From Gemmatimonadota bacterium (GTDB lineage Bacteria > Gemmatimonadota > Gemmatimonadetes > Longimicrobiales > Gaopeijiaceae), in the NCBI GenBank assembly GCA_007130605.1, contig SLSF01000145.1, positions 1-35,489 of the forward strand: a stretch of DNA of 35,489 nucleotides, given 5' to 3'. This document shows, in pieces, positions 3,337-24,156 of this stretch. The translations under genes and the position numbers were made by a program. Positions within the stretch are counted from its first letter, which is position 1; each line of letters begins with the position of its first letter. The notes beneath the pieces were generated by a model that was not told the DNA's origin, ran no database searches, and worked only from the letters and a program-made list of their open reading frames with translations.

Positions 3337-4539
3337 ATGCCACGACGCATCGCACAGATCAGCAGGGGAGTCCTCCTTCTCTCGCTCATGTTGGCCACCG
3401 GATGCTGGAGCACCGACGGGGGTGAGGGGAACGACAGGACCGACGACTCCGGTCGCCTCACCCTGACGGGGGCAGGGGCCACCTTCCCCTTCCCCATCTA
3501 CTCCCGGTGGTTCTCCATCTACTCGCGGGAGCACCCGGTCCGGATCAACTACCAGTCCATCGGCTCCGGCGGGGGAATCCGCCAGATGATCGAGGGGACC
3601 GTGGACTTCGGCGCCACCGACGCCCCCCTCACCGAAGAGGACCTGGAGCGCATTCCGGGCACCCTCTCGATCCCCACGGTCCTGGGGGCGGTGGTCCTCA
3701 CCTACAACCTTCCGGGGCTCGAGCAAGCCCTCCGTCTCGACGGCGAGATCATCGCCGGGATCTTCCTGGGAGAGATCCGGCGGTGGCGGGACCCCCGGAT
3801 CCTCGCCCTGAACCCGGAAGTCGAGATCCCCGACCGCGACATCATTCCAGTCCACCGCTCCGACGGCTCCGGCACCACCTACGTCTTCACCGACTACCTG
3901 CAGGTGGTGAGCCCAGCGTGGCGGACCCGGGTGGGGCGGGGCAATGCGGTGCGCTGGCCCACCGGACTGGGCGCCCGTGGCAATGAAGGGGTGACCGGCC
4001 AGGTTCGCCAGTCCCCCGGCGCCATCGGTTACGTGGAGCAGGTTTTCGCCCGCCAGAACCGCCTCCCCATGGCCGAGGTGCGGAACCGGAACGGAGAGTT
4101 CGTGGCGCCCTCCATCGATGCCACCACCCGGGCGGCGGAGGGGCTCGCGGAACGGATCGTCGACGACGACTTCCGCCTCTCCATCGTCGATGCGCCCGCC
4201 GAGGGCGCCTACCCCATCGCGGCGTGGACCTACCTCCTCATCAGCCCACACTTCGACGACTGCTCCCGGGGCACCGCCATCCTCGAGCTGATCCGGTGGG
4301 CGCTCCTGGAGCGTGAAGACGATGTGCGCGACCTGAGCTATGCACCGCTGACCCTCGAGATCCGGATCCGGGCCCTCGACGCCATGAAGGGGGTCACCTG
4401 CGGCCCCTCTGCCCGGCTCATCTTCGATCCGGACCGCGACTTCGAGGCGGAGGCACGGGGCGAGGTGCCCCCCCCCGAGGTCGAGATCGACCCCGATACC
4501 CCGAGCGGCGGAGAGGACACCGATGGCGAATCCCGCTGA
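3337..4539 (+). CDS. pstS: Phosphate-binding lipoprotein PstS
   Basis: A 400-residue periplasmic phosphate receptor of the PstSCAB ABC importer. A lipoprotein signal ends in LMLATGC with Cys23 as the lipidated residue, so the protein is probably membrane-tethered. Family motifs include LTGAGATFPFPIYSRW, NYQSIGSGGGIRQM, VDFGATDAPL, VHRSDGSGTTYVFTDYL and GAIGYVEQVF; the SGSGTT loop and GSGGG loop bind phosphate. The C-terminal ~25 residues are an acidic, Pro/Glu-rich tail beyond the normal fold. The start has GGGGAGCC upstream. The 3' end overlaps pstC by 17 bp. It lies behind a Pho-box-like promoter, so phosphate limitation should induce it. Confidence 0.97.
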   Translation: MPRRIAQISRGVLLLSLMLATGCWSTDGGEGNDRTDDSGRLTLTGAGATFPFPIYSRWFSIYSREHPVRINYQSIGSGGGIRQMIEGTVDFGATDAPLTEEDLERIPGTLSIPTVLGAVVLTYNLPGLEQALRLDGEIIAGIFLGEIRRWRDPRILALNPEVEIPDRDIIPVHRSDGSGTTYVFTDYLQVVSPAWRTRVGRGNAVRWPTGLGARGNEGVTGQVRQSPGAIGYVEQVFARQNRLPMAEVRNRNGEFVAPSIDATTRAAEGLAERIVDDDFRLSIVDAPAEGAYPIAAWTYLLISPHFDDCSRGTAILELIRWALLEREDDVRDLSYAPLTLEIRIRALDAMKGVTCGPSARLIFDPDRDFEAEARGEVPPPEVEIDPDTPSGGEDTDGESR

Positions 4540-5491
4540 CGGCGGACTGATGGCTCGACTCCTCCCCTCCCGCTCGAAGGGGAATGTCCAGGACCAGTTC
4601 TACCGGCTGGCCCTCCTCCTCTTCGGAGTGAGCATTCCCCTCCTCTTCCTCTTCATCGTCCTCCGGATCGGCACCGAGGCGTGGCCGGCCATGGAGGCCT
4701 TCGGGTGGGGCTTCATCACCGGTACCGAGTGGAACCCGGTGCTCCGGGAGTTCGGGGCGCTCCCCTTCATCTTCGGCACCGTGGTCTCGTCGGTTCTGGC
4801 CCTGATGATCGCCCTCCCCCTTTCGGTGGGCCTCGCCATCTTCCTCACCGAACTCGCCCCCCGCTGGCTCGCCGCCCCCATCGCCTTCGCCACCGAGCTT
4901 CTGGCGGCGATCCCCTCGGTAGTCTACGGGCTCTGGGGGATCTTCGTCCTGGTCCCCTGGCTCCGCTTCACCATCCAGGAGCCCCTCTCCCGACACTTCG
5001 GCGACGTGATTCCCATCTTCGAGGGGCCGGCGTACGGCTTCAGCATGATGGCGGGGGCGGTGATCCTCTCCATCATGATCATCCCCTTCATTTCGGCGGT
5101 GACCCGCGAGGTCCTCACGGCGGTCCCCCGCGACCAGCGTGAGGCCGCCCTGGCCCTGGGCGCCACCCGCTGGGAAATGACGTGGCAGGTCGCACTTCCC
5201 TACGCCCTGCCGGGGATCATCGGAGGCGCGATCCTGGGGCTCGGCCGCGCCCTGGGCGAGACGATGGCCATCACCATGGTCATCGGGAACCGCCCGGACA
5301 TCGCCGCATCACTCTTCGCGCCGGGCTACACCATGGCCTCGGTTCTGGCCAACGAGTTCGCCGAGGCCACCGGGGCCCTCTACCTCTCGGCCCTCATGGA
5401 GATTGCCCTGATCCTCTTCGGGATCACCATCGTGGTGAACATCTTCGCCCAGCTCCTGGTCTGGCGTGTGGCGAAGCGGGGAGGCCGATGA
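4523..5491 (+). CDS. pstC: Phosphate ABC transporter permease PstC
   Basis: A 322-residue inner-membrane permease with about six transmembrane segments, the first at residues ~28-50. The large loop after TM1 (GFITGTEWNPV, FGALPFIFGTV) and the ABC-docking EAA loop (REAALALGATRWEMTWQVALPYALPGI) are characteristic of PstC. RALGETMAITMVIGN near the end is also a Pst/Cys permease signature. GGAGAGGAC precedes the ATG, which lies inside the 3' end of pstS. It pairs with PstA to form the channel for phosphate. Confidence 0.97.
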   Translation: MANPADGGLMARLLPSRSKGNVQDQFYRLALLLFGVSIPLLFLFIVLRIGTEAWPAMEAFGWGFITGTEWNPVLREFGALPFIFGTVVSSVLALMIALPLSVGLAIFLTELAPRWLAAPIAFATELLAAIPSVVYGLWGIFVLVPWLRFTIQEPLSRHFGDVIPIFEGPAYGFSMMAGAVILSIMIIPFISAVTREVLTAVPRDQREAALALGATRWEMTWQVALPYALPGIIGGAILGLGRALGETMAITMVIGNRPDIAASLFAPGYTMASVLANEFAEATGALYLSALMEIALILFGITIVVNIFAQLLVWRVAKRGGR

Positions 5492-6339
5492 TGGCCGACT
5501 CCCTCTCGCGCCGCCGCCGGTGGACGAACCGGATCATGCTCACCCTCACCGGGGTGGCGTCGGTCCTGATCCTGGTCCCTCTGACCCTCATCCTCTCCTA
5601 CCTGATGACCGCAGGGTCGGGGGCCATCAACATCGACTTCTTCACCCAGCTCCCCGCCCCGGTGGGCGAGGAGGGTGGAGGCATGGTCAATGCCCTCGTG
5701 GGCACCCTCTTCCTGGTGCTCCTGGCGGGAGCGCTGGGGCTCCCCATCGCCGTGGGAGCGGGGATCTACCTGGCCGAGGCCCGCAAGAGCCCCTTCGCGA
5801 ACCTGGTCCGCTTCATCGCCGATGTCATGAATGGGATCCCCTCCATTGTCACCGGCATTTTCGTCTGGGCATGGATCGTCCTCTGGATGGGGCGCTTCTC
5901 CCTGCTGGCGGGATCGGTGGCCCTCGCCGTCATGCTCATCCCCATGGTGACACGAACCACCGAGGAGATGGTCCGGCTCGTCCCCCGCGAGCTCCGGGAG
6001 GGGGGCATCGCCCTGGGCTTCACCCGGTGGCGCACGACCCTGGGGATCGTGATCCCGGCGGCCCGCGGCGGCATCCTCACCGGGATCCTGGTGGCCCTCG
6101 CCCGCATCTCCGGAGAGACCGCACCCCTCCTCTTCACCGCCTTCGGAAATCCCTTCATGGAGTGGCGCCTGAATGAGCCCATCTCGGCCCTTCCGCTCCT
6201 GATCTACCAGTACGCCATCTCTCCCTATGACGAATGGCATCGACTCGCCTGGGCCGCGGCGCTCGTCCTCATCGCCCTTGTGCTCGTCATCAGCCTCCTG
6301 ACACGCTTCCTCATCAAGGATCCCCATCGTGAACGCTGA
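5488..6339 (+). CDS. pstA: Phosphate ABC transporter permease PstA
   Basis: A 283-residue permease, partner of PstC. Six hydrophobic segments are visible, with the family motifs [34 protein letters not shown], the EAA loop ([22 protein letters not shown]) and [19 protein letters not shown]. The gene starts with ATG at 5488, overlapping the pstC stop by 4 bp; a second ATG follows directly at 5491 and could also be used. It ends 11 bp inside pstB. The tight overlaps imply translational coupling across the operon. Confidence 0.97.
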
Positions 6340-7186
6340 ACTCCAGCCCTCCACCATGGCACCTCACCGACCGTCTCGCTCGCCCGGCGCCGAAGCTGAG
6401 GCATCGGCGCTCCCCCCGGCCCGCGAGCTGGAGTCGGCGGTGGAGGCGACGGATTTCTCCTTCTGGTACGGGAGCAACCAGGCCCTCGACTCCATCTCCC
6501 TCACGGTCCCGGCCCGGAAGGTGACCGCCCTCATCGGCCCCTCGGGGTGCGGAAAATCCACCTTCCTCCGCTCCATCAACCGGATGAACGACCTGATCCC
6601 CGGGATCCGCCACGAGGGCGACATCACCCTCCACGGTGACTCGGTCTACCGGAACGACCGCGACGTGGTGCAGCTTCGCAAGTCGGTGGGGATGGTCTTC
6701 CAGAAGTCGAACCCCTTCCCCAAGTCCATCTACCAGAATGTGGCGTATGGGCCCAAGGTGAACCGGCTGGTGCGGGGGCGCGCCGAGATGGATGAGCTGG
6801 TGGAGCGGTCCCTCCGGCGAGCGGCCCTCTGGGACGAGGTCAAGGACCGCCTCGACTCGAGTGCGCTGGGGCTCTCGGGCGGCCAGCAGCAGCGGCTCTG
6901 CATCGCGCGGGCGCTGGCGGTCTCTCCGGAGGTGATCCTCATGGACGAGCCGGCGTCGGCCCTCGATCCCGTCGCCACCCAGAAGATCGAGGAGCTCATC
7001 TACGAACTGAAGCACGAGTACACCATCCTCATCGTGACCCACAACATGCAGCAGGCGGCCCGCGTCTCCGACTACACGGCCTTCTTCTACATGGGCCGGC
7101 TCATCGAGATGGGCCGGACGCAGCAGCTCTTCACCAATCCTCACGAAGAGCAGACAGAAGCCTACATCACGGGACGGTTCGGATGA
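6329..7186 (+). CDS. pstB: Phosphate ABC transporter ATPase PstB
   Basis: A 285-residue ATPase that powers PstCA. Walker [10 protein letters not shown] is at residues 70-78, followed by the Q-loop ([15 protein letters not shown]), signature LSGGQQQR, Walker B VILMDEP with ASALDP, and the H-loop VTHN. MNDLIPG and YGPKVN are specific to PstB. The chosen start is GTG 6329, with AAGGA 8 nt upstream and an 11-bp overlap with pstA. ATG 6356 is an in-frame alternative. Even with the later start the protein carries an N-terminal extension of about 25-35 Pro/Ala-rich residues relative to most PstB proteins. Confidence 0.97.
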
Positions 7187-7884
7187 GCAGAATCGAGTCC
7201 GGGGGTCCCCGGCACTTCCATGAAGAACTCACCCGGTTGAAGGGACTCCTCCTGGAGATGTCGGGCGAAGCCGAGGCCCTGGTCCGCCTCTCGGTGGACT
7301 CCCTCCTGGAGCAGGACCTGGCCAAGGCGCAGGAGGTCATCGATGGCGACGACCGGGTGGACGAGCTCGAACTCGAGATCGACCGGGTCGCCCACGAGAT
7401 CCTCGCCCTCCAGCAGCCCATGGCCGGGGACCTCCGATTCATCACCATGACGATGAAGATCTCCAACGACCTGGAGCGGGTGGGCGACCACTCGGTGAAC
7501 ATCGCCCGTGCCGTGCAGCGTCTGGCCGACCTCCCTCCCTTCGGCCGGGCCCCGGAAGTGGCGGAAATGGCGAGCCTGGCCATCGCAATGCTCTCCGACG
7601 CCCTCGACTCCTTCGTCCGGGGCGACGCCCAGGCCGCCGGAGAGATCGGCCCCCGCGACGACCGGGTGGACCACCTCTACAACTCGATGTTCCGGGTCCT
7701 CCTCACCCACATGATGGAGGACCCCCGCCGGATCGGCCCCGCCATGACGACCCTCCTCATCTCGAAGAACCTCGAGCGGATCGCCGATCTGGCCACCAAT
7801 GTCGCCGAGGATGTCATCTTCATGGTGGAGGGGAGGGTGATCAAGCACGGCACCGGACGGAGCTCCGGTCCAGCCGGGGGCTGA
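7183..7884 (+). CDS. phoU: Phosphate signalling complex protein PhoU
   Basis: A 233-residue cytoplasmic helical protein with two repeated three-helix PhoU bundles. The metal-binding E/DxxxD repeats are visible as [16 protein letters not shown] (first half) and [18 protein letters not shown] (second half), each in the usual place. PhoU links transport by PstSCAB to the PhoR/PhoB system and keeps the regulon off when phosphate is plentiful. It is the last gene of the operon and starts with an ATGA overlap with pstB. No phoR or phoB gene is in this window. Confidence 0.97.
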
Positions 7885-15728: not shown

Positions 15729-16520
15729 TCAGATGAGACCCCGGACCCACCCGCCATCGACGGGGATCGAGGTGCCGGTGATGTAGGAGGCGCGGTCCGA
15801 TGCCAGGAAGGCCACGAGAGCCGCGAACTCCTCCGGCTCCCCCAGGCGACCCATGGGAATCTCCGCCTCCCACGCCGCATAGGCTTCCTCGGGGGTCGTT
15901 CCCTTCGCCTCGGCATTCCGCCGGGCCAGCTCCCCCAGGCGCTCGGTCCGGGTGAATCCGGGGAGGACATTGTTCACCGTCACGCCCTCGCCGGCGACTT
16001 CATTGGCCAGGGTCCGGGCCATTCCCGTGACCGCGGCCCGGATGGAGTTCGAAAGCAGGAGCCCGTCCACCGGCTGCTTCACCGCCACCGACGTCACATT
16101 GATGATGCGCCCCCACCGGCGCTCCCGCATCGCCGGAAGAAGCTCCCGGGTCAGATTCACCACACTGTCCAGATTCTGCTCCACCGCACGGCGCCACACC
16201 TCCGGGCCATGAGCCTCGAAGGGCCCCGCCGGAGGCCCCCCCGTGTTGGTGACCAGGATGTCCACCCGTCCGAACCGCTCCCGGGCGCCCTCCACCACCT
16301 TCCGAACTCCCGCCGGATCGGTGAGATCGGTGGGGATCGCCTTCACCTCGGTCCCATGGGCGCTCCGGATCTCCCCTGCGGCCACCTGGAGGGCATCTGC
16401 TCCCCTCGCACAGAGGACGAGCTTTGCTCCCTCCCCGGCCAGCGTCTCTGCCGCCGCCCGTCCGAGACCCCGGCTCGACCCCCCGACCAGCGCGACCTTG
16501 CCCTCGATTCCCAGATCCAT
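15729..16520 (-). CDS. Atypical short-chain dehydrogenase/reductase (BKR-like, degenerate active site)
   Basis: A 263-residue Rossmann protein. The nucleotide motif is GGSSRGLG (residues 13-20) rather than TGxxxGxG, NNAG is replaced by NTGGPPAG (92-99), and catalytic YxxxK is replaced by S157xxxR161 in LLLSNSIRAAVTG; Ser144 in NVTSVA is kept. The end is GTSIPVDGGWVRGLI, a normal SDR C-terminus. This pattern matches the SDR subgroup described as beta-ketoacyl-ACP-reductase-like with an imperfect catalytic tetrad, so the substitutions are a family trait and not decay. The reaction is unknown. The start has GGGGAG upstream. It is transcribed away from the next SDR gene across a 100-bp spacer. 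Confidence 0.88.
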   Translation of the reverse strand: MDLGIEGKVALVGGSSRGLGRAAAETLAGEGAKLVLCARGADALQVAAGEIRSAHGTEVKAIPTDLTDPAGVRKVVEGARERFGRVDILVTNTGGPPAGPFEAHGPEVWRRAVEQNLDSVVNLTRELLPAMRERRWGRIINVTSVAVKQPVDGLLLSNSIRAAVTGMARTLANEVAGEGVTVNNVLPGFTRTERLGELARRNAEAKGTTPEEAYAAWEAEIPMGRLGEPEEFAALVAFLASDRASYITGTSIPVDGGWVRGLI

Positions 16521-16620
16521 TTTCTCACTCCCCTGTCTTTGGTGTTTTCGTACTCTGGGGAACCCCGACCCGGCCCGGAGGGTTCGAGACGCCTGCCCTT
16601 CCTCCATCCCGAAGCCCCAG

Positions 16621-17415
16621 ATGACGAATCGACTCCAAGGCCGCCGGGTTCTGATCACCGGCGCCTCCGCCGGGATCGGGCGTGCCTGTGCCCGCACCTT
16701 CGCGGCCTCCGGCGCCGACCTCCTCCTCTCCGCTCGCCGCTTCGGCCGGCTCGAGGCCCTCCGTCGCTCCCTCGAGGCCGAGTTCCAGGTCCATGTGGCC
16801 ATCGAGCGCCTCGATGTCCGGGACCGGGCGGGAGTGGAGACCTATGTCTCCCGACTCGCCGTCGAGAACCGCCTCCCCGACATCGTGGTGAACAATGCCG
16901 GCCTCTCCCGGGACCTCCTCCCCTTCCACGAGGGAAAGGTCGAGGGGTGGGAGGAGATGATCGACACCAATGTGAAGGGACTCCTGTACATGTCGCGGGC
17001 CATCCTCCCCCACATGGTCTCCCGGGACTCGGGACACCTCATCCATATCGGGAGCACCGCCGGCGAGACGGTCTATCCCGGGGGGAATGTCTACAACGCC
17101 TCGAAGTTCGCCGTGCGGGCGCTGAACGAGGGGATGAACCTGGACCTGGCAGGCACCCGCATCCGGGTCTCCTCGGTGGATCCGGGCCTCGTCGAGAGCG
17201 AGTTCTCGGAGGTGCGTTTTCGGGGAGACCGGGAGCGGGCGGAAGCCGTCTATCGCGGCTACACCCCCCTTTCCCCCGACGACGTGGCCGAGGTGGTCCG
17301 GTACGTGGCCAATGCGCCGGAGCATGTGAACCTCCACCGGGTCATCCTCTACCCCACAGACCAGCGGAACCCCTACGTCCTCCATCGCACCGGCCCCCCG
17401 GTCGACCCGGAATGA
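16621..17415 (+). CDS. ydfG: YdfG-like NADP-dependent SDR (3-hydroxy acid / serine dehydrogenase type)
   Basis: A 264-residue classical SDR with all motifs: TGASAGIG at 13-20, NNAGL, catalytic Ser in IGSTAG, and Y158-N-A-S-K162. The segments MIDTNVKGLLYMSRAILPHM, GGNVYNASKF and DPGLVESEFSEVRFRGD closely follow E. coli YdfG, which oxidises L-allo-threonine, serine and other 3-hydroxy acids and reduces malonic semialdehyde. ATG 16621 begins the conserved fold; the frame is open upstream but that is antisense to the neighbouring SDR. An MFS transporter follows 25 bp later, probably in the same transcript. Confidence 0.88.
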   Translation: MTNRLQGRRVLITGASAGIGRACARTFAASGADLLLSARRFGRLEALRRSLEAEFQVHVAIERLDVRDRAGVETYVSRLAVENRLPDIVVNNAGLSRDLLPFHEGKVEGWEEMIDTNVKGLLYMSRAILPHMVSRDSGHLIHIGSTAGETVYPGGNVYNASKFAVRALNEGMNLDLAGTRIRVSSVDPGLVESEFSEVRFRGDRERAEAVYRGYTPLSPDDVAEVVRYVANAPEHVNLHRVILYPTDQRNPYVLHRTGPPVDPE

Positions 17416-17440: not shown

Positions 17441-18712
17441 GTGACCCTCCTCAGACCCTCCGGACGTCCCCGCCCGGGCCTGGTGGTCTTCACCCTCTGG
17501 CTCCTCGTCTTCTCGGCGAGCAGCCAGATCATGGTGATCGCCCCCATCCTTCCCCTGGTAGGCGATGAGCTCGGGATCCGGGAGGCGCTCCTGGGGACCC
17601 TGGTCTCGGCGTACTCCCTCATGGTGGGAGCCTTTGCCATCATCTCGGGGCCCTTCTCGGACCGCATCGGGCGCCGCCGGATCCTCGCCATCGGGACCGG
17701 GGTCATGACCCTGGCCCTCGCCGCTCATATCTTCGTGGTGGGCTACTGGAGCTTCATCCTCGTCCGCCTCCTGGCGGGCACCGCCGGAGGGGTCCTCTCG
17801 GGAGCGGCGGTATCGTATGTCGGGGACTACTTCCCGTACGAGCGCCGGGGCTGGGCCACGGGATGGGTCATGAGCGGGATGGCGGCGGGCCAGATCGTGG
17901 GGGTGCCCGCCGGAGTGGTCCTGGCCGGCTGGTTCGGCTTCCGGATCCCCTTTCTCTTCTTCGCCCTCTCGATGGCACTGACCTTCTTTCTCGTCCTGTC
18001 ACTCCTCCCGCAGCCGGAGGTGGAGCGGAGCCGGGACCCGGTCACCTTCCGCCGCGCTGCCGACGGGTACCTCGGCCTTTTGCGACAGCCCGAGATCCGC
18101 GCCGCCGCAGGGGCCTTCCTCCTCATGTTCGTGGGAATCTCCTTCTATGTGATCTACCTGCCCACCTGGCTCGAGCGGGGAATCGGGGCCACCGCCAACC
18201 AGATCGCCCTCCTCTTCCTGGTGGGCGGGGTGGCCAATGTCATCGTCGGCCCCCAGGCCGGTCGGATCTCCGACCGGATCGGACGGAAGGGAATCATCCT
18301 CGCCTCCTGTCTGGGCCTCACCGTGGTCATGGCGCTCACCACGGTGGTCATCCGGGAGGTCTGGCACGCCTTTCCGTACTTCTTCGTGGTCATGGCCCTG
18401 GTGGCGATGCGCATCGGCCCCTTCTCGGCACTCCTCACGGCGCTGGTCCCGGGAGACCGACGGGGCTCCCTGCTCAGCATGACGGTGGCGCTGGGCCAGC
18501 TCGGCTTTGCCGCCGGGAGCACTGCGGCCGGGCTCCTCTACGCCACGGCGGGATACGCGTCGACCACCTGGATCGCCTCCCTCTCGGTACTGGGGATGGG
18601 TCTCATGGTCTGGTTCCTCCTTCCGGAGCCCGGGTTCGACGCGCCGGTGGACGCCCGGACCACCTCCCCCGCCGCCATCGTACGAGACGACACCACCCCT
18701 CCCGGTGCCTGA
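17441..18712 (+). CDS. MFS transporter
   Basis: A 423-residue inner-membrane protein with about 12 hydrophobic segments. The MFS motif A appears after TM2 as GPFSDRIGRRRIL and again in the second half as GRISDRIGRKGII, the usual duplicated signature of the 6+6 fold. FPYERRGWATGW and VPGDRRGSLLSM are the loop motifs found in drug/H+ antiporter and aromatic or sugar efflux relatives. The start is GTG 17441, with a poor ribosome site, which fits coupling to the SDR gene 25 bp upstream. The substrate cannot be told from the sequence; an efflux role is likely. Confidence 0.9.
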   Translation: MTLLRPSGRPRPGLVVFTLWLLVFSASSQIMVIAPILPLVGDELGIREALLGTLVSAYSLMVGAFAIISGPFSDRIGRRRILAIGTGVMTLALAAHIFVVGYWSFILVRLLAGTAGGVLSGAAVSYVGDYFPYERRGWATGWVMSGMAAGQIVGVPAGVVLAGWFGFRIPFLFFALSMALTFFLVLSLLPQPEVERSRDPVTFRRAADGYLGLLRQPEIRAAAGAFLLMFVGISFYVIYLPTWLERGIGATANQIALLFLVGGVANVIVGPQAGRISDRIGRKGIILASCLGLTVVMALTTVVIREVWHAFPYFFVVMALVAMRIGPFSALLTALVPGDRRGSLLSMTVALGQLGFAAGSTAAGLLYATAGYASTTWIASLSVLGMGLMVWFLLPEPGFDAPVDARTTSPAAIVRDDTTPPGA

Positions 18713-18883: not shown

Positions 18884-18910
18884 ATGACCCGCTCAAGCCC
18901 CATAGAATGA
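18884..18910 (+). other. Possible 8-codon leader cistron
   Basis: An ATG at 18884 opens an 8-codon frame whose TGA (18908-18910) overlaps the ATG of the receiver/PIG-L gene at 18907 in the ATGA arrangement used throughout this window. The main gene itself lacks a clear Shine-Dalgarno sequence, so translation by coupling is possible. It could be chance. Confidence 0.25.
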
Positions 18911-20058
18911 ATCACACCCTTCCCGGCACCTCCGGCAGAGTCCGGATCCTCTTCGTCGAAGACAACCTCGACCAGGCCCACCTGGTCAAGTTTCTTCTCG
19001 AGGCCGGGGGTGACTACTCGGTCACCCTGGCCCAGGACGGAGATCGAGGCATCGAACTCATCCACTCCCACGGATGGGACCTCCTCATCACCGACCTCAA
19101 CCTTCCGGGGGCCGACGGCACCGAGATCGTCGAGGCGGCGCGCACCCGGAATCCCGACCTGCCCATCCTGGCCACCACCGGCTACACCGGACCGGAGTAC
19201 TCCCAGCGGGCCATGGAGCGGGGCGCCGACGCGGTCCTGGTCAAACCGCTGGACCGCGACGAGCTCCTGGAACGGGTCCGGACGCTGGTCTCGGAAGGAC
19301 GACCCAGGCGAACCCGCACCCCTCCTTCGACCCCTCTCATGGAGCCGGCGAGTCCCCGGCCTCGCCGCCCCATCCCGCCGAAGGCAGCCTTGCAGCCCGA
19401 CCGGCAGATATCCCATTCTCCCTTCCAGGTGCTCGCCATCAGCACCCGCCCCGGCGAGGTCGAGGCGGGGATCGGGGGCGCGCTCCTTCGCCACCGGGAG
19501 GCCGGCCACGAGGTGGTCATCCTCTACCTGAGTCCGCGTCTGCACGCGAATGCTCCCTCCGAGGGTCGAGGCCAGGCCCGGGAGTGTGGTCGTCGCCTGG
19601 GCGTCCGGACCTTCGTCGGCGACACCGTCGAGGCCGGCGGAGAGATGAAGGCCCTGACCCGCCTCGCCGCCGGCGCGGTCGACGAGATCTCTCCGGATCT
19701 TCTCTACCTGCCGACCCTTCACCATCGGGACCCCATGAATCGAGCTGCCCATCGAGCCGCGCTCGGCGCTGCCACCGGCGTGAAGCACTGCTTCGCCTAC
19801 GATGCGGGTGCCATCGAGCCGACCTTCTCCCCCGACCTCGTCGTCCCCCTCTCGAATGACCTCCTGGATCGCAAGATCGAGGCACTCCTTCCCTACCAGA
19901 AGACTCCCCTCCTCCACCTCGGCTCGGACTTTGTCCGGAGCGCCGCCCTCTACTGGGGCCGCTTTGCCGAGGGGGTTCCCGCCGAGGCCCTGGAGCGGCT
20001 GACGGGACCGCATCCCATTTCCGACACCGTGAATCTGCACAGCGAGGACGCGCCATGA
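18907..20058 (+). CDS. Response-regulator receiver domain fused to inactive PIG-L/LmbE-like domain
   Basis: A 383-residue soluble fusion. Residues ~10-128 are a complete receiver domain: acidic pair E18-D19, phospho-acceptor D63 in LLITDLNLPGADG, T91 in ATTGYTG and K113 in VLVKPLD. A Pro/Arg-rich linker (131-170) follows. Residues ~173-365 follow the PIG-L/LmbE fold: VLAISTRPGEVEAGIGG aligns with the family's AHPDDExxGxGG, then RECGRRLGV, PDLLYLPT, and KIEALLPYQ near the end. The zinc ligands are lost: His to R181, Asp to G183, and the HPDH motif reads D275-P-M-N278. So it is probably not a deacetylase but a phosphorylation-controlled binding protein. It is coupled to the LOG gene by ATGA. 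Confidence 0.8.
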   Translation: MNHTLPGTSGRVRILFVEDNLDQAHLVKFLLEAGGDYSVTLAQDGDRGIELIHSHGWDLLITDLNLPGADGTEIVEAARTRNPDLPILATTGYTGPEYSQRAMERGADAVLVKPLDRDELLERVRTLVSEGRPRRTRTPPSTPLMEPASPRPRRPIPPKAALQPDRQISHSPFQVLAISTRPGEVEAGIGGALLRHREAGHEVVILYLSPRLHANAPSEGRGQARECGRRLGVRTFVGDTVEAGGEMKALTRLAAGAVDEISPDLLYLPTLHHRDPMNRAAHRAALGAATGVKHCFAYDAGAIEPTFSPDLVVPLSNDLLDRKIEALLPYQKTPLLHLGSDFVRSAALYWGRFAEGVPAEALERLTGPHPISDTVNLHSEDAP

Positions 20059-20657
20059 CCCCCGAGACCTCCCCCCTCGAGAGAATCTGCGTCTTCTGCG
20101 GGTCCAGCGCCGGAGAGGATTCCCGCTACCTCGACGGTGCCACCCGGCTGGGCGAGGAACTCGTGCGAAGGGAGATCGGCCTGGTCTATGGCGGTTCCAG
20201 GATGGGAATGATGGGCCGGCTTGCCGACACCGTCATCGGTGCCGGGGGCGCGGTCATCGGGATCATCCCGGAGCCCCTCACCCACCGCGAAGTGGCGCAC
20301 CACGGCCTCACCGAGCTCGTGGTGACCGATTCCATGCACGAGCGGAAATCCGAGATGGCGCGTCGCGCCGATGGATTCATCGCCGCTCCCGGGGGGCTGG
20401 GTACTCTGGAGGAGTTCCTCGAGGTGGCGACCTGGGCGCAGCTCGGCATGCACAGCAAGCCGTGCGGCCTCCTGAACCTCCACGGCTTCTACGATCCTCT
20501 CATCGCCATGCTCGACCACCAGTCCCACGAGGGATTCCTCCAGGCGGCCCATCGCCAGATGATCCTCGTGGAATCGGACCCGAGCCGACTCCTGGACCGG
20601 ATGGCGGCGTATAAGCCCCCGAAGGTCCCACGGTGGATCGAGGTCGGAGAAACCTGA
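20055..20657 (+). CDS. LOG-family nucleoside-5'-monophosphate phosphoribohydrolase
   Basis: A 200-residue Rossmann-fold protein of the TIGR00730/LOG family, related to cytokinin-activating LOG and to bacterial PpnN-like nucleotide hydrolases. The signature PGGLGTLEE is at residues 112-120, and MHERKSEM (94-101) provides the conserved Arg/Lys of the active site. CVFCGSSAG at the start and YGGSRMGMMG form the nucleotide-binding loops. The expected reaction splits a nucleoside monophosphate into base and ribose 5-phosphate. It overlaps the receiver/PIG-L-like gene by 4 bp (ATGA), which suggests that the two work together. The real substrate is not known. Confidence 0.92.
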   Translation: MTPETSPLERICVFCGSSAGEDSRYLDGATRLGEELVRREIGLVYGGSRMGMMGRLADTVIGAGGAVIGIIPEPLTHREVAHHGLTELVVTDSMHERKSEMARRADGFIAAPGGLGTLEEFLEVATWAQLGMHSKPCGLLNLHGFYDPLIAMLDHQSHEGFLQAAHRQMILVESDPSRLLDRMAAYKPPKVPRWIEVGET

Positions 20658-20748: not shown

Positions 20749-21717
20749 ATGGCCACCGCACCCCACCTCGAATTCGAACGAGACATGGTGGAGGTCCAGG
20801 AGCAGATCGACAAACTTCTCGAGCTGGCCGAAAAGAAGGGCATCGACGTCTCTTCGGAGCTCGGTGAGCTTCGGGGTAAGCTCGAGGTGCTTCGTGAAGA
20901 GACCTACCGGAATCTCACCCCCATCGACCAGGTCCAGGTGGCCCGCCACCCGCGCCGCCCCTACACCGGCGACTACATCGAACGGGTCTTCACCGACTTC
21001 ATCGAGCTTCACGGAGACCGGGCCTATCGAGACGACGCCGCCATCGTCGGGGGATGGGGTCGGCTGGGGGGCGAGACCATCATGTTGATCGGCCACCAGA
21101 AGGGCCGCGACATGAAGGCGAATCTCCACCGGAATTTCGGAATGCCCCACCCCGAGGGCTACCGGAAGGCACTCCGCCTCATGCGGCTGGCCGAGAAGTT
21201 TCGCCGTCCGGTGGTGACCTTCATTGACACCCCGGGTGCGTACCCGGGAATCGGAGCCGAGAAGCGCGGGCAGGCCGAGGCCATTGCCATGAACCTTCGC
21301 GAGATGGCTCGCCTCCGCACGCCCCTTCTCTCGGTGGTCATCGGAGAAGGCGGATCCGGAGGCGCTCTGGCACTCGGAGTCACCGACCGGATCCTCATGC
21401 TCGAGCACTCCATCTACTCGGTGATCTCGCCGGAGGGGTGCGCGGCGATCCTCTGGCGATCGGCCGACCACCGGGACAAGGCCGCCCAAGCCCTCAAGCT
21501 CACCTCGTCGGACCTGCACCGCCTCGGGATCTGTGACGAGGTCATCCCGGAACCGGCAGGGGGCGCCCACACCGACTGGGACGCCATGTCCCGCCGCCTC
21601 GGAGACACCCTCCGCCGCCACCTTGCCGAGCTGACCGAGATGAACGCCGACGACCGTCGCAAGGCCCGCTGGGCCAAGTACGAGGCGATGGGCGCCTGGC
21701 GCGAGGCACAGGGGTAG
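20749..21717 (+). CDS. accA: Acetyl-CoA carboxylase carboxyltransferase subunit alpha
   Basis: A 322-residue cytoplasmic subunit. With AccD it transfers the carboxyl group from biotin-AccB to acetyl-CoA to give malonyl-CoA, the first step of fatty acid synthesis. The sequence follows AccA throughout: an N-terminal helical region, then DRAYRDDAAIVGGWGRLGG, GRDMKANLHRNFGMPHPEGY, FIDTPGAYPGIGAEKRGQAEA, GEGGSGGALALGVTDR and SVISPEGCAAILWR. Family length is about 315-325. ATG 20749 was chosen over the adjacent GTG 20746 because GGAGG then sits 5 nt upstream. ricT follows after 13 bp. No accD, accB or accC is in the window. Confidence 0.97.
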   Translation: MATAPHLEFERDMVEVQEQIDKLLELAEKKGIDVSSELGELRGKLEVLREETYRNLTPIDQVQVARHPRRPYTGDYIERVFTDFIELHGDRAYRDDAAIVGGWGRLGGETIMLIGHQKGRDMKANLHRNFGMPHPEGYRKALRLMRLAEKFRRPVVTFIDTPGAYPGIGAEKRGQAEAIAMNLREMARLRTPLLSVVIGEGGSGGALALGVTDRILMLEHSIYSVISPEGCAAILWRSADHRDKAAQALKLTSSDLHRLGICDEVIPEPAGGAHTDWDAMSRRLGDTLRRHLAELTEMNADDRRKARWAKYEAMGAWREAQG

Positions 21718-21730
21718 GGGAGAACGCCCC

Positions 21731-22609
21731 ATGTCGACTTTCGCAGAGGTGGGATTCAAGGGACGTCGGAAGGAGTACTTCACCACGACCTCCCTCGACC
21801 TCCAGCCGGGACACCATGTGATCGTCGAGGCCGACCGGGGCCAGGACCTGGGGCGTCTCCTCGCTCTCGGCGCCGTGGCGGAACGAACCTGCTCGGCATC
21901 GGAAGGCGGGTGCGCCACGCCCCTCCCCGAACGGAAGGTGATCCGTGAGGCCCGCGACGAGGAGCTGCGACTCCTGGAGGACCTCCGCCGGGATGAGGAG
22001 CGGGTACGGGCCCGGACCCGCGAGCTGGTGCACGATCACGGCCTCCGAATGAAGGTCACCGAGGCGGAGTGGCAGTTCGACCGGCGCAAGCTCACCATCT
22101 TCTTCACGGCGGAGCGCCGGGTGGACTTTCGGGCGCTCGTCCGCGACCTGGCCCGCACCTTCCGGACCCGCATCGAGCTCCGTCAGATCGGGGTCCGCGA
22201 CGAGTCGGCCCTCCTGGGCGGGGTGGGCCGCTGCGGACGGGAGCTCTGCTGCTCGAGCTGGCTTCCCGACCTGAAGCCCGTCTCCCTCCAACTCGCCAAA
22301 GACCAGAAGCTCTCGCTCAACCCAGCCCAGATCTCCGGGTGCTGCGGCCGTCTCATGTGCTGCCTCATGTATGAGCACGACACCTATGTGCAGGCCCGCC
22401 GACGCTTCCCCCGAGAGGGAAAGGTCCTCCGGACCGGCCTTGGCCAGGAGCGCGTGGTGGACGTGGACATCTGGGGTGAGCGGGTCACCCTGCGCGACGA
22501 GGAGGGGAGCCGCCGCACCGTCGAACTCGAGGCCCTCAAGGAGGAGGTTCGGAGTCGACCCCGCGACCGGCACTCCCCAACGGAACGAACCCCGGAGACC
22601 GATTCTTGA
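21731..22609 (+). CDS. ricT: RicT/YaaT-like PSP1-domain iron-sulfur protein
   Basis: A 292-residue PSP1-family protein. The conserved C-terminal domain carries seven cysteines in the arrangement GRCGRELCC (C168, C173, C174) and SGCCGRLMCC (C204, C205, C210, C211). In B. subtilis, RicT forms a complex with RicA and RicF that binds Fe-S clusters and guides mRNA processing with RNase Y, affecting competence, sporulation and biofilm. No ricA or ricF is seen here, so the role in this organism is inferred. GGGGAG precedes the ATG. The stop overlaps the metG start (TTGA); ricT-metG linkage is common in other phyla. Confidence 0.9.
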   Translation: MSTFAEVGFKGRRKEYFTTTSLDLQPGHHVIVEADRGQDLGRLLALGAVAERTCSASEGGCATPLPERKVIREARDEELRLLEDLRRDEERVRARTRELVHDHGLRMKVTEAEWQFDRRKLTIFFTAERRVDFRALVRDLARTFRTRIELRQIGVRDESALLGGVGRCGRELCCSSWLPDLKPVSLQLAKDQKLSLNPAQISGCCGRLMCCLMYEHDTYVQARRRFPREGKVLRTGLGQERVVDVDIWGERVTLRDEEGSRRTVELEALKEEVRSRPRDRHSPTERTPETDS

Positions 22610-24156
22610 CGCCGAAGTCCAGGGTCTACCTGACGACCCCCATCTACTACGCCACCGGCGCACCCCACATCGGGCACGCCTACACCACCCTCCTCGCCGA
22701 CGCCCTGGCACGCTACCACCGTCAGCGGGGGGCGGAGGTCCACTTCCTTACCGGAACCGACGAGCACGGCCAGAAGATCCAGGAGGAGGCTTCCCGCCGG
22801 GAGATTCGACCCATCGAACTCTGCGACGAGATGGCCGAACGCTTTCGGCAGGCGTGGTCGGACCTGGAGGTCGGTCACGACCGCTTCATCCGCACCACCG
22901 AGCCGGAGCATGTGGCGGTGGTCCGTGCGCTACTCGAACGCCTCCACGCCCGGGACCTCATTTACGAGGACCTCTACCGCGGCTGGTACTGCGTCCACGA
23001 GGAACGCTACTGGACCACGAAGGACCTGACCCCCGAGGGGAACTGCCCCGACTGCAACCGACCGGTGCGCGAGATCGAGGAGAAGAACTGGTTCTTCCGC
23101 ATGAGCCGCTTCCAGGACGACCTCATCCGGCACATCGAGGAGAACCCCGGGTGGATCCATCCGGAGAACCGCCGCAACGAGGTCCTTGGCTTTCTCCGGC
23201 AGCCCCTGGGCGACCTCTCCATCTCCCGTCCCCGCACCCGACTCGACTGGGGGATCCCCATCCCCTGGGACGAGGAGCATGTGACCTATGTCTGGGTCGA
23301 CGCCCTCACCAACTACCTGACCGCGTCGGGACGAATCCATCCGGGAGCCCCCGAGGGAGAACAGGGATTCGAGGCCGGCGCCGACGAGAGCTGGTGGCCG
23401 GCCGACCTCCATATCATCGGAAAGGACATCCTCACCACCCACGCAGTCTACTGGCCCACCCTCCTCATGGGCGCGGGGCTCCCCCTCCCCCAAAGGATCC
23501 TGGCCCATGGATGGTGGGTCGTGGGCGATGCGAAGATGTCGAAATCCATCGGAAATGTGGTGGACCCGCTGGAACTCCGCTCCGAATTCGGAGTCGATGC
23601 AGTCCGCTGGTACCTCCTTCGTGAGATGCCCACCGGTGGCGACGCCTCGTACACGCGGGAACGCTTCCTCACCCGCTACGACGAGCTCGCCAACATTCTG
23701 GGGAACCTCGCTTCCAGGGTCACCTCCATGGTGGTCCGGTACCGCGACGGCGCCCTGTCGAAGGACGCGCCCTCGCACGCCCTCGACGACGCCATCGACC
23801 GAACCCTCGCGGTCTACCACGAGAAGATGGAGGCCCTCCGGGTGCACGAGGCCTTCGCCGCCGCCATGGAGCTCGCCCGCGAGGCCAACGGCTTCGTGGA
23901 GGCCCGGGAGCCCTGGGCACAGGCGCGGGACCCGAAGCAGGCGGAGGCCCTCGACGAGACCCTCGCCTCGCTCCTTCGAGTCCTCGGGGTCCTGGCCGCC
24001 CTCTTCCATCCGACGATCCCCGCCAAGGCGGAGTTGCTCGCGGAGGCAGTGGGCTTCGCGAGGACCCCCACACTCGACGAAGCACGGGGGACCTCTCCCG
24101 GAGGACGCAGTGTAACGAAGCTGTCGCCGCTCTTCCCCAAACCGGAGCGCGGATGA
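22606..24156 (+). CDS. metG: Methionine--tRNA ligase
   Basis: A 516-residue class I synthetase that charges tRNA-Met. The HIGH motif is at residues 21-24 (GAPHIGHAY) and KMSKS at 310-314 (DAKMSKSIGNVVDP). The core includes TGTDEHGQKIQ and WVDALTNYLTA. It ends soon after the anticodon-binding helical domain, so it lacks the C-terminal EMAP-like tRNA-binding domain found in longer MetG forms. In the connective peptide, CPDC is present but the partner knuckle reads CVHEE rather than CxxCE, so a full four-Cys zinc site is doubtful. The start is TTG 22606, overlapping the ricT stop, with GGAG 9 nt upstream. Confidence 0.96.
   Translation: MTPKSRVYLTTPIYYATGAPHIGHAYTTLLADALARYHRQRGAEVHFLTGTDEHGQKIQEEASRREIRPIELCDEMAERFRQAWSDLEVGHDRFIRTTEPEHVAVVRALLERLHARDLIYEDLYRGWYCVHEERYWTTKDLTPEGNCPDCNRPVREIEEKNWFFRMSRFQDDLIRHIEENPGWIHPENRRNEVLGFLRQPLGDLSISRPRTRLDWGIPIPWDEEHVTYVWVDALTNYLTASGRIHPGAPEGEQGFEAGADESWWPADLHIIGKDILTTHAVYWPTLLMGAGLPLPQRILAHGWWVVGDAKMSKSIGNVVDPLELRSEFGVDAVRWYLLREMPTGGDASYTRERFLTRYDELANILGNLASRVTSMVVRYRDGALSKDAPSHALDDAIDRTLAVYHEKMEALRVHEAFAAAMELAREANGFVEAREPWAQARDPKQAEALDETLASLLRVLGVLAALFHPTIPAKAELLAEAVGFARTPTLDEARGTSPGGRSVTKLSPLFPKPERG

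Follow-up and report, generated by a model that had tools for sequence, protein, structure and literature searches.

Enzymes of the PIG-L/LmbE superfamily carry the LmbE-like motif HxD1D2...H, in which the first His, D2 and the last His are the metal ligands and D1 is the general base (PMC4101496). In MshB the metal is bound by His13, Asp16 and His147, and the general base is Asp15 (PMC4101496). Among response regulators PorX is known as an enzymatic member in which a receiver is combined with an alkaline-phosphatase-superfamily domain that has kept its zinc-dependent activity (PMC11320123). Here, we describe a receiver (REC) joined to a PIG-L-like domain. The window, which means the whole stretch of 35,489 nucleotides that was analysed, encodes a regulator that we consider, on sequence grounds, to be a descendant of a REC-PIG-L family; its own PIG-L-fold output is probably non-catalytic and would bind a partner or ligand depending on phosphorylation of Asp63, and the LOG gene located downstream would be separate from it.

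The regulator gene is an open reading frame with ATG start (positions 18907..20058, 383 amino acids; as all features given below for the window it lies on the forward strand). Its receiver comprises residues 12-130 (18940..19296), of which 14-125 are spanned by Pfam Response_reg (PF00072) with an E value of 3.3e-23, and its model matches solved receiver structures at TM 0.9 (Foldseek, target-length normalised). The first-pass annotation described a complete receiver with E18, D19, D63, T91 and K113, and all five residues are indeed found at these positions. They are invariant or conservatively replaced in nearly all relatives, and Asp63 (codon 19093..19095), the predicted phosphorylation site, is present in all scorable ones. 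A Pro/Arg-rich linker (residues 131-171, 19297..19419), disordered in the model with pLDDT mostly below 50, connects the receiver with the PIG-L/LmbE-fold domain (residues 172-366, 19420..20004).

This second domain has no match to Pfam PIG-L in the window protein and, searched alone, resembles BC1534/BshB only weakly in sequence (E 0.0076); PF02585 is matched by 13 of 14 family members. The AlphaFold model of the regulator, built from ten sequences (window and fetched loci), has a mean pLDDT of 81. Its best Foldseek match is BshB (2ixd, TM 0.72), the target-length normalised values for 2ixd and TT1542 (1uan) are 0.70-0.72, and the probability is 1.00 for 2ixd, 1uan and 6p2t, i.e. for the LmbE-like Rossmann-type fold. 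As modelled, the second domain is thus of PIG-L/LmbE fold. Both zinc motifs are degenerate: the first reads R181-P-G-E184 (19447..19458) in place of H-P-D-D in intact relatives and the second D275-P-M-N278 (19729..19740) in place of H-P/Q-D-H. Compared with the catalytic motif, His is replaced by Arg, the general base Asp by Gly, the ligand Asp by Glu and the second His by Asn, which leaves neither the metal site nor the base. The first-pass annotation had located R181, G183 and N278 correctly and, with the fold match to solved PIG-L structures, its description of a PIG-L-like domain devoid of a catalytic site stands; its assignment of Gly183 to a zinc position does not, since according to PMC4101496 this is the position of the general base and the zinc-binding Asp corresponds to Glu184. 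H272 and H273, which it had named as possible substitutes in a zinc site, can be rejected as ligands because neither is conserved even within the same genus, where two relatives carry Arg/Trp and Glu at these positions.

A contig scan with the second domain alone as query gave no match, and a scan with an alignment of three close sequences returned relatives. Those with a name are Gemmatimonadota metagenome assemblies, the Myxococcales genome UBA1660 and one contig labelled Gammaproteobacteria; the latter (L134, JAHEKL010000161.1) carries its family member beside accA and is probably mis-binned or mislabelled. When 121 genomes belonging to the GTDB family of the window were searched with a profile, receiver-fused proteins separated from ordinary PIG-L proteins and occurred in about 50 of the 121. 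Of the 154 genomes of the order, 50 have a hit to the full-length profile at E <= 1e-30, and these all fall within this one Gemmatimonadota family; the class-level search adds one genome (G289); these larger searches scored few candidates per genome and weaker members may be missed. Many genomes of this family lack the regulator gene, which is therefore dispensable. The genome of the window itself contains a separate PIG-L-type match elsewhere (G000:C268:1952-2308), and a catalytic deacetylase may therefore be encoded away from the regulator locus. In two loci, L078 (G117) and L105 (G007), the regulator is split over frames by frameshift, decay or assembly error, and in L098 (G022) a long insert splits the match of the PIG-L-like domain within a single frame.

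Motif states were counted in the 42 degenerate members of scorable quality. His181 is kept in none of them and His278 in four, Gly183 is found in 40, and position 184 is acidic throughout (Asp in 33 members). Arg or Lys occupies position 181 in 29 members and position 278 in 27, and at least one of the two positions in 41 of 42. For the co-occurrence of Arg at 181 or 278 a P of about 0.01 is obtained under independence, a value that is only suggestive because it ignores phylogeny. Outside the motifs G188, P309, K323 and E360 are invariant (42/42). Because this pattern recurs across the family, the loss of the motif in the window protein is not a matter of chance. Loss of the classical site is compatible with a different chemistry, and the PIG-L fold does host other reactions, e.g. 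in the hydratase GalB (5cgz), which is among the fold matches. The domain could accordingly still be an enzyme, either metal-free or with a metal held by Glu/Asp184, Glu186 (kept in 37/42) and other residues. We regard this as improbable: the invariable acid at 184 and the frequent Glu186 speak for it, but the two His ligands and the base have been replaced, and the other His residues near the old motif are as little conserved as H272 and H273.

In a phylogenetic reconstruction with ordinary PIG-L proteins as outgroups, the intact members and the outgroups fall on one side of a branch with support 99/92. When the motif columns are removed, the 41 degenerate rows still lie on one side of a branch, with moderate support (92/86). 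Support is weak (64/36) for the branch on which the intact member from G012 groups with the remaining intact ones. The simplest reading of these trees, though not a proof, is that the zinc site was lost once in the ancestor of the degenerate clade. Eight close degenerate pairs were compared by dN/dS (Nei-Gojobori) of the PIG-L-like domain: seven have values of 0.09-0.19, similar to the intact G131 pair (0.13); the exception is the pair G008/G104, whose domain value is 0.39 and for which dN/dS lies at 0.39-0.53. As judged from these substitution rates, the degenerate domain is maintained under purifying selection. Chance decay or a pseudogene can be dismissed for most members by the low dN/dS together with the common substitution pattern.

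Intact motifs (HPDD and HPDH/HQDH) are present in G012, both copies of G131, G289 and UBA1660 as well as in the Myxococcota relatives G540, G541, G542 and G588. In G012 the intact regulator is located about 8.5 kb downstream of an MFS and a short-chain dehydrogenase (SDR) gene and is followed by an M1 peptidase gene at the contig end; the start of accA lies on another contig, 56 bases in, so that the link of the locus to accA crosses a contig break. This arrangement suggests, without proving it, that the regulator locus once held an active enzyme. Close homologs with intact motifs had been named in the first-pass annotation as an argument against its reading: such homologs exist, one of them apparently at the same locus, but they likely represent the ancestral state and not that of the close relatives. 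The control by a phosphorelay that it had assumed is in line with the surroundings of several intact genes. In G131 (two loci), UBA1660, G540 and G542 a hybrid histidine kinase with receiver and Hpt domain is adjacent or within two genes; its architecture is HisKA-HATPase-REC-REC-Hpt. Pfam confirms the kinase for UBA1660, G542 and one of the G131 loci, and in the other two it was recognised by sequence only. In the loci concerned (L072, L074, L140, L203 and L206) these kinases contain two receivers, and proteins with PHP domains or TPRs recur near several of the intact genes (Pfam-confirmed in G542 only). A family 2 glycosyltransferase is encoded close to the intact gene of G289 (L129, 3976-5673) and a GlmS-like protein close to that of G540 (L203, 9772-11703). 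Such neighbours suggest a link of intact REC-PIG-L proteins to amino-sugar polymers, and we infer that these proteins may be phosphorelay-controlled deacetylases, perhaps acting on a polymer of this kind.

The position of the degenerate members on one side of the tree, the purifying selection and the occurrence of intact relatives beside Hpt kinases together place the window protein, as far as sequences can tell, on a pseudoenzyme branch within a REC-PIG-L family that is linked to phosphorelays. Since the zinc site was lost and the dead form is nevertheless kept by dozens of related species, the output is probably binding rather than catalysis. Alternatively, the regulator may function like a single-domain receiver, i.e. 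as phosphate sink or as phosphorelay intermediate comparable to Spo0F, with the PIG-L-like domain as structural or dimerising remnant. Conservation is higher in its receiver than in the second domain (mean column entropy 1.61 vs 2.10), which, like the Hpt-containing kinases next to intact-type relatives, would fit this role. It is nevertheless a rather unlikely one, as the second domain is kept in nearly all scorable loci, shows low dN/dS and has invariant residues of its own.

The neighbourhood of the regulator is conserved to a large extent. Downstream accA (20749..21717, Pfam ACCA) is found in 44 of 47 loci, the remaining three being located at contig ends, and it is followed by a gene of the ricT/PSP1 family (21731..22609, Pfam and NCBIfam) and by metG for methionyl-tRNA synthetase (22606..24156, Pfam) in nearly all loci with a contig reaching that far. 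Upstream an MFS transporter gene (17441..18712, Pfam) is present in 43 of 47 loci, usually preceded by an open reading frame with C-terminal short-chain dehydrogenase (16243..17415, homology from residue ~126). These constant partners could suggest that the target of the regulator is acetyl-CoA carboxylase, RicT or the MFS exporter, which it might for instance bind in a phosphorylation-gated manner. The same order of MFS gene and accA-ricT-metG, however, occurs in genomes that do not possess the regulator, as MFS-accA in G114 and G025 and as MFS-LOG-accA in G017, so the adjacency may be just old synteny and we give little credence to such a target. No kinase gene adjoins the regulator at the accA locus. 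An M1 peptidase gene is detected by tblastn in 16 of 47 loci, once inside the open frame of the regulator: in L097 (G133, 4411-7302, minus strand) both form one frame of 963 codons, possibly because a stop codon was lost or the assembly is wrong. This read-through is not counted as a functional fusion because the M1 part keeps a signal-peptide-like start.

The LOG-type gene directly downstream of the regulator (20055..20657, 200 amino acids) encodes a nucleotide phosphoribohydrolase. It matches Pfam Lysine_decarbox (E 4.6e-42) and TIGR00730 (195.1 bits vs a curated cut-off of 96.35 in NCBIfam), and its APGGLGTLEEF segment fits the PGGxGTxxE motif; the cytokinin-specific LOG cut-off of NCBIfam is not reached. 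The first-pass annotation proposed that the two proteins form one signalling pair, and the ATGA overlap on which this was based does exist between the frames 18907-20058 and 20055-20657. An overlap is otherwise seen only in G018 (3 bases); LOG is present in 12 of 47 loci: in 11 it adjoins the regulator, and in G004 another gene lies between the two. Against a pair stand the 35 loci in which LOG is missing at this place, 15-16 of all loci having the M1 peptidase instead, the order MFS-LOG-accA in G017, where LOG is kept and the regulator is absent, and the at least four gains or losses of LOG required on the tree. Synteny thus does not support a two-gene system, and we consider a functional coupling most unlikely. 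From its distribution LOG looks like a separate, optional neighbour that is incidental to the regulator.

For the preferred reading, that of a binding regulator, the following evolution and mechanism can be proposed. The ancestor would have belonged to the REC-PIG-L family, whose members are presumably deacetylases and in several genomes have a gene for a hybrid, Hpt-containing histidine kinase next to them. In one Gemmatimonadota family the member at the accA locus apparently lost its zinc site through replacement of both His ligands and the general base; the acidic ligand was kept, Arg often took the place of a zinc-binding His, and the dead domain would then have been retained under selection. 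The degenerate domain should be incapable of deacetylation. A kinase or Hpt protein encoded elsewhere would phosphorylate Asp63, the PIG-L-like domain would in consequence change its position or dimerisation, and the output would consist in binding of a partner protein or a sugar-like ligand. The analysis identified neither a kinase nor a ligand or partner for the degenerate form. Where zinc was formerly bound, a salt bridge may now connect the arginine with Glu/Asp184. In a more far-reaching version the replacement of zinc by Arg would have converted a phosphorelay-controlled deacetylase family-wide into a receptor that is gated by phosphorylation and recognises an amino-sugar-like ligand or a partner protein, and hence into a new type of output; this we put forward as a tentative idea with a modest chance of being correct.

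A literature search for the REC-PIG-L architecture, the arrangement with hybrid kinases or inactive PIG-L proteins returned no relevant paper within a coverage that leaves out most subscription journals. Intact relatives occur in two phyla, one intact copy at the same locus is apparently orthologous, and the dead clade extends over dozens of species; the family thereby offers an evolutionary series from enzyme to pseudoenzyme within a two-component regulator, which makes it testable how a signalling output moves from catalysis to binding. The intact members beside hybrid Hpt kinases, some of them near polysaccharide-type genes, represent a little-described and probably phosphorelay-controlled deacetylase family. 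With the PIG-L/LmbE superfamily (PF02585; BshB/BC1534, 2ixd, and TT1542, 1uan) the regulator has the fold and many structural residues in common, but its domain possesses neither the HxDD...H metal site nor the general base and is fused behind a receiver. The downstream gene is a member of the LOG/TIGR00730 phosphoribohydrolases above the cut-off. Intact REC-PIG-L proteins of Gemmatimonadota and Myxococcota, among which that of G012 apparently occupies the same locus, exhibit the same domain order and C-terminal YWGRF...EPxEV pattern as the regulator; in contrast with it they keep HPDD and HPDH/HQDH, and several are encoded beside hybrid Hpt kinases and PHP/TPR genes and not beside accA. In PorX (PMC11320123), as in the regulator, the partner of the receiver is a metal-hydrolase fold and not a DNA-binding domain, but the folds differ and zinc-dependent activity is kept in PorX.
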